DNA of 64,000 nucleotides. Origin: a virus. Positions 59,504-59,625 of this stretch are shown here, piece after piece. The first letter of the stretch is position 1, and every line of letters starts with the position of its first letter. A program made the position numbers and the translations under genes. Under the pieces are notes generated by a model. It ran no database searches. It worked only from the letters and a program-made list of their open reading frames with translations, and was not told the origin of the DNA. The stretch is from positions 1 through 64,000 of the IMG/VR virus record IMGVR_UViG_3300022668_000040, one strand, 5' to 3'.

Positions 59504-59625
59504 GTGGATAAAATAAAGCTCACAATGCGCGTCCTAACCACTAGACGATCACCGAATAGTCGGTGAGCAGGATTTGAACCTACGTTTCGGTCTCCAAATG
59601 ACGATAAGTGAACTTAACGACCCAC
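59504..59625 (-). ncRNA. yrlA: YrlA-type Y RNA B with tRNA-like domain
   Basis: On the minus strand the tRNA-like part runs T-stem GTAGG/CCTGC with loop TTCAAAT, then a closed 7-bp acceptor TCACCGA-CTAT-TCGGTGA, then D-stem CGTC/GACG with loop TAGTGGTTAG. This is tRNA order permuted with no free CCA end, as in YrlA. Outside it, GTGGGT/ATCCAC and AAGTTCAC/GTGAGCTT pair around an internal loop CGTT / TATTTT, the position of the Ro60 site, though the motif is degenerate (GTCGTT instead of GNCGAA; TTATCC instead of TTGNCC). An extra small hairpin TCGTC/GACCGA with a 7-base loop precedes the T-arm. Confidence 0.7.

Follow-up and report, generated by a model that had tools for sequence, protein, structure and literature searches.

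A predicted second tRNA-like Y RNA of the YrlA class upstream of a phage Ro60 gene

The window, i.e., the whole stretch of DNA analysed here, covers 64 kb of a virus record of 76,088 bases; unless stated otherwise, the features below lie on its minus strand. The locus includes an intact, full-length gene for a phage Ro60 protein of 540 amino acids (57050–58672), recognised by the Pfam domains vWA_Ro60 (7.5e-49) and TROVE (1.3e-36) and matching the human Ro60 chain at 5e-98. Human Ro60 is a lupus antigen; its residues K170, R174 and H187, which we take to be Y RNA contacts, align with K172, R176 and H189 of the phage protein. The order of the locus is RNA C (59927–59988), RNA A (59788–59916), RNA B (59504–59625), an open reading frame of 121 amino acids (59126–59491), RNA D (59058–59118) and Ro60, with four predicted Y RNAs upstream of the gene, which itself begins 832 bases downstream of RNA B on the same strand. 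The 121-residue frame has no Pfam or PHROG match. Promoter-like sites occur at the level expected by chance (7 found vs 5.3 expected), and scans for terminator-like sites and for tandem repeats found none.

RNA B has paired ends: GUGGGU (59620–59625) faces AUCCAC (59504–59509) in an outer stem read from the sequence and supported by covariation and by the alignment to the R1 model described below. The alignment of relatives places the putative Ro60 site in the internal loop that follows, formed by CGUU on the 5' side (59616–59619, with a conserved CG) and UAUUUU on the 3' side (59510–59515); it is succeeded by the inner Y stem, AAGUUCAC (59608–59615) against GUGAGCUU (59516–59523). The stem encloses an anticodon-arm-like hairpin, UC-GUC-AUUUGGA-GAC-(C)-GA, with UUG at positions 34–36 (59587–59604), a T arm GUAGG-UUCAAAU-CCUGC (59567–59583), an acceptor stem UCACCGA-CUAU-UCGGUGA (59549–59566) and a D arm GUCU-AGUGGUUA-GGAC containing GG (59531–59546). 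The T arm and the acceptor are apparent in the sequence and found by both the module scanner and R1; the D arm is found by the scanner, and a comparison of D arms puts it nearest to tRNA-Glu. Thus, from 5' to 3', a strand of a Ro60-type stem is followed by the T arm, the acceptor and the D arm, which is a permuted tRNA order. All seven acceptor pairs are Watson-Crick, the stem being closed by CUAU; the T loop UUCAAAU retains U55, and uridines are present in the D loop, which are candidate sites for pseudouridine 55 made by TruB and for dihydrouridine made by Dus. The elements named in the original prediction (GUGGGU/AUCCAC, the T arm, the acceptor with its CTAT loop and the D arm with GG) are therefore all found in the sequence.

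The folding energy of RNA B is -39.6 kcal/mol at its minimum (MFE) vs -28.6 (sd 3.4) in shuffled sequences, none of the 200 being as low (z = -3.24). A module scanner, which searches for permuted units of T arm, acceptor and D arm, gives RNAs A and B a score of 20 each and the rest of the window at most 16; when the 64 kb window was shuffled 60 times with its dinucleotides preserved, the score never exceeded 18. The covariance model R1, built from an alignment (A2, MAFFT) of 27 phage Y RNAs of which none comes from the window, returns exactly 59504–59625 with 66.1 bits (E = 2.4e-15, model positions 1–128). RNA A scores 91.3 bits (E = 4.7e-22), and the next match in the window is the D arm of a tRNA-Met with 13.7 bits. 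The Rfam model of YrlA (RF02553) gives RNA A 46.5 bits, below its gathering score of 69, and has no match to RNA B up to E = 10. The two RNAs are identical in 64 of 130 aligned columns and are therefore different sequences, as had been claimed.

The short RNAs C and, with weaker evidence, D flank the pair A/B and were absent from the original prediction. Both were scored by a second model, R2, built from 42 short Y RNAs without a tRNA module (alignment A4), which were selected by length and visual inspection out of some 48 short R1 matches. RNA C, a predicted short Y RNA of this kind, reaches 36.6 bits (E = 3.7e-6) in the search of the whole window; RNA D, a probable one, reaches 19.8 bits (E = 7.7e-4) in a search of 1.7 kb with filters off, and the whole-window search did not report it. 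Folded alone, neither is clearly better than its shuffles. Two further hairpins can be mentioned here: a stable one, GUGCUGAA...UUCAGCAC, lies between RNAs A and B (59735–59790) and beats 200 of 200 shuffles, and a strong one upstream of RNA C (60010–60070, z = -2.94) could bound the RNA array.

Relatives were taken from one named phage and from 80 IMG/VR loci that encode a Ro60 relative. The alignment A2 holds 27 of 29 chosen sequences, since L073 (misplaced 3' end) and L029:7215 (a near duplicate) were dropped. Its cells are paired in 91.4% of cases vs 38–46% with the partners slid; the former value is biased upward because pairing in the outer stem, the T arm, the acceptor and the D arm was part of how the rows were chosen. 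This selection weighs less on the diversity of compensating pairs: changes on both sides are seen in 6 of 6 pairs of the outer stem and in 7 of 7 pairs of the acceptor. The inner Y stem, where only three pairs were required at selection, is paired in 74.9% of cells. The covariation of GUGGGU/AUCCAC proposed as a check is thus observed for the family, but no close relative carrying the RNA B locus was found. Single-protein scans of viral contigs with Ro60 and with the 121-residue frame yielded none; a coat-like protein led to one contig of 4.6 kb and a RecA-like protein to eight contigs, and R1 found nothing on these nine. The covariation therefore rests on distant relatives, partly selected by pairing. 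Together with the R1 match, which has precisely the ends first proposed, it supports the claim of a second tRNA-mimic Y RNA.

Full-length R1 matches of at least 41 bits occur at least once in 61 of the 80 viral Ro60 loci, and within 2 kb upstream and on the same strand in 57 of the 80; two or more are found in 29 loci and at least three in 9. A second tRNA-like Y RNA beside a viral Ro60 is therefore common. Bacterial Ro60 loci also carry such Y RNAs according to R1.

In 2014, Chen et al. reportedly described Y RNAs close to the Ro60 genes of bacteria and phages, with at least one tRNA-like RNA in each. Bacterial YrlA (Salmonella YrlA, PDB 6CU1; RF02553) is similar to RNA B in that a stem with the Ro60 site precedes permuted T, acceptor and D arms and in that it is encoded beside the Ro60/Rsr gene. 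In the published account, YrlA consists of an Rsr-binding basal stem with D-, T- and acceptor-like arms (PMC8394870), and the circular permutation of Y RNA arms relative to tRNA is already known (PMC11472068). Phage Y RNAs have been proposed before (PMC12282133, PMC7765460); in particular, three highly transcribed regions of Listeria phage CKA15, all within 2 kb of its Rsr-like gene, have been put forward as Y RNAs, so that abundant small RNAs of the same direction were seen there as transcripts, whereas RNA B is known from sequence (PMC12282133). R1 found the Y RNAs near Ro60 of Microbacterium phage FuzzBuster, Mycobacterium phage Phabba and Gordonia phage Sixama, the scores being 97.9 (L007), 108.6 (L008, a training row) and 83.1 bits (L006). 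RNA B differs from YrlA in its Glu-type D arm (GUCU/GGAC rather than GCUC/GAGC) and from RF02553 in the anticodon-like hairpin placed where Rfam draws a closing helix only. Judging by its sequence and predicted fold, we believe that RNA B is an intact extra member of this known class, the tRNA-like Y RNAs (YrlA).

Of 99 relatives, 3 have the D arm UC-GUCU/GGAC: RNA B itself and the RNAs at L021:7463-7587 and L044:7159-7283 of two IMG/VR phages, each located upstream of Ro60 at a distance of less than 1 kb. Among the 841 normal tRNAs of the loci, the GUCU/GGAC pattern occurs in 3 of 48 tRNAs for Glu, 1 of 50 for Gly and 1 of 47 for Lys. The D arm of RNA A is of the commoner GCUC/GAGC type; since the types differ, the bodies of the two RNAs look like different tRNAs.

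The hairpin with UUG noted at the outset is present in RNA B, but it is weak: only three pairs (GUC/GAC) are continuous, or five with one bulged C, and forcing it costs 1.1 kcal/mol over the MFE structure, which favours UUUGG-AGA-CCGAA. At least three pairs around a 7-base loop with U33, R37 and A38 arise in 1.8% of shuffles of this segment, and in 38% when the signature is not required. The evidence from the family is stronger. In the phage relatives, the hairpin lies between UUA and the T arm; the anticodon-position segment was usable in 92 sequences, of which 78 were long enough for a fixed-geometry test. Four pairs around a 7-base loop at the fixed place occur in 21 of the 78 rows vs 5.1 (sd 2.0, maximum 12) with the 3' arms re-dealt, while loops of 3–6 and 8–11 bases at the same place are near chance; the pair types interchange, which is covariation. 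The full signature of U33, R37 and A38 is present in 24 of 40 rows with the hairpin (three or four of the four pairs) vs 3 of 38 rows without it (Fisher 9.8e-7), and the triplet at the anticodon position varies widely. Among bacterial relatives (86 of 123 rows usable), a 7-base hairpin is found in 13 of 84 rows vs 4.7 expected and a 5-base hairpin in 21 of 85 vs 7.2. The 7-base-loop hairpin thus appears to be a well-supported family feature of phage tRNA-like Y RNAs. RNA B fits it weakly: it carries the signature but, being bulged, misses the unbulged fixed geometry. RNA A has three pairs at this position and no anticodon-loop signature; instead, a 6-pair helix closes its tRNA body onto the Y stem, vs two closing pairs plus the hairpin in RNA B.

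Two simpler rules for the hairpin were rejected. It is not confined to the tRNA-like class, since short Y RNAs are also enriched in 7-base loops (14 of 86 vs 4.4 shuffled), and hairpin and closing helix do not exclude each other (Fisher p = 0.83). Since short Y RNAs also show the hairpin, although more weakly, it does not depend on the remainder of a tRNA body, which calls for some caution. We infer that the hairpin may act as an anticodon arm. It is tempting to go further and propose that the YrlA RNAs of phages mimic an entire tRNA, circularly permuted so that it opens at position 26, the Ro60 stem being placed between its D arm and its anticodon arm (a 7-base loop U33-NNN-R37-A38 with a variable triplet, UUG in RNA B). 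Several such RNAs with different bodies and triplets would then form a Ro60-tethered set that acts as decoy or bait for tRNA enzymes or anticodon nucleases of the host. We offer this tentatively and find it rather doubtful. The published passages and titles covered by the literature search mention no anticodon-like arm in Y RNAs; absence from print is not claimed.

We presume that RNA B is a YrlA-class Y RNA of the phage's own Ro60 particle, its tRNA-like end docking a partner, and give this explanation as a whole a probability of about 0.78. By its shape and place, RNA B should ride on the phage Ro60. The protein would grip the stem of the paired ends at the internal loop with the conserved CG, and the far end would present the permuted tRNA body, which most likely includes a weak anticodon-like arm. 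If bacterial Rsr-Y RNA particles are taken as the model, the Y RNA would hold Ro60 while the tRNA-like end docks on a tRNA-binding or RNA-processing partner; candidates, by this analogy, are PNPase or one of the enzymes that modify tRNA, for example TruB or DusA. PNPase is described as tethered by Rsr and Y RNA in Deinococcus (PMC7790460), and DusA and TruB are described as acting on YrlA as a substrate (PMC8394870). While infecting its host, the phage would thereby steer the decay of RNA or the handling of tRNA, and RNA B would differ from RNA A by its Glu-type body and anticodon-like hairpin, A having a direct closing helix. The binding to Ro60, the expression, the partner and the effect of RNA B are what we infer from the above.

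The anticodon-like arm could also mean that RNA B serves a separate partner, the tRNA-like end being a decoy or bait for a host anticodon nuclease or modification enzyme and the binding to Ro60 secondary. The presence of the hairpin in the family and in RNA B (the 1.8% by shuffling) agrees with this, as does a published suggestion that YrlA might be a competitive inhibitor of an anticodon nuclease; however, YrlA itself is described in the same paper as uncut by the Salmonella nuclease (PMC7790460), the hairpin of RNA B is weak, and no gene related to defence was noticed beside it. We consider this explanation unlikely.

The Ro60 site bears on another alternative, that RNA B is a decaying duplicate of an RNA A-like gene whose binding to Ro60 was lost by drift. 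The comparison draws on an alignment (A3) of 150 of 236 R1 matches, of which 122 have at least 100 bases and 110 are distinct; 106 of the latter have letters at both ends, and 98 of these have CG at the site. The whole site of RNA B scores 15.2 vs a family median of 19.3 and ranks 73rd among these 98 phage relatives, its unpaired part ranks 85th, and the site of RNA A ranks 4th and 12th, respectively. The element GGUUAUC reads ACUUAUC in RNA B (rank 94 of 98), RNA A being also low (91), and the Y stem of RNA B has 8.8 bits with the R2 model vs 23.2 for RNA A. These values agree with drift, and the part of the original prediction that the motif has diverged holds to the extent that the site is below the family median. 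On the other hand, the CG is kept; the third base after it is A in 40, G in 35, U in 14 and C in 9 of the 98 relatives, i.e., CGU as in RNA B occurs in 14, and a U-A closing pair like that of RNA B occurs in 21. Because both CGU and the U-A pair recur among relatives, the Ro60 site of RNA B is a weaker example rather than a broken one, and the label “degenerate” is overstated. Drift is further opposed by the intact T loop, seven acceptor pairs, D arm and both helices of the Y stem; with only 64 of 130 columns matching RNA A, these helices were kept through deep divergence. The D-arm type shared with L021 and L044 is a further argument against it; the L021 RNA has the canonical GGUUAUC and a better Ro60 site than RNA B (rank 29 of 98). 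The suggestion that RNA B may have drifted is therefore not upheld, and we regard a decaying duplicate as quite improbable. The GGUUAUC element is common to short and tRNA-like phage Y RNAs, and vertebrate Y RNAs also contain GUUAUC.

A circularly permuted tRNA gene whose transcript is processed by cutting and joining to give a functional tRNA would likewise have the T arm and the acceptor 3' half before the acceptor 5' half and the D arm; however, the acceptor ends are joined by CUAU only, leaving no room for a discriminator, CCA and a spacer, and the ends of RNA B pair as a Ro60-type stem in a Y RNA array beside Ro60, which makes such a gene highly improbable. Chance or relics of tandem tRNAs (a lost tRNA whose 3' part lies beside the 5' part of another) could be suggested by similar short matches within tRNA arrays of two phages that lack TROVE (L003 and L005), but they are refuted by the matching Y stem framing the module and by the R1 score (66.1 bits vs at most 34.6 bits, in L003), a module score of 20 was never reached in the 60 shuffles, and we give this reading almost no weight.

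One of these two phages, Sphingobium phage Lacusarx (L003), was tried as the home of RNA B and rejected: it is 80.6% identical over 62 bases, but the match lies in a tRNA array, has only 29.1 bits with R1 and belongs to a genome without TROVE; it is probably a tRNA relic or an orphan module. The unannotated region L003:5920-6100 of the same tRNA array contains one scanner-positive and one possible further permuted module.

A phage that encodes Ro60 together with as many as four Y RNAs, of which two mimic tRNAs and differ in their bodies, offers a small system for deleting the RNAs one by one. Should the anticodon-like arm prove functional, it would connect the Ro60 particles of phages with defence and repair directed at tRNA, a link that is directly testable.

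Elsewhere in the window, on the plus strand, a frame of 837 amino acids (5106–7619) contains LAGLIDADG and homing-endonuclease domains in an insert, probably an intein in an ATP-binding loop; read by eye, the host protein of this insert resembles a large terminase.
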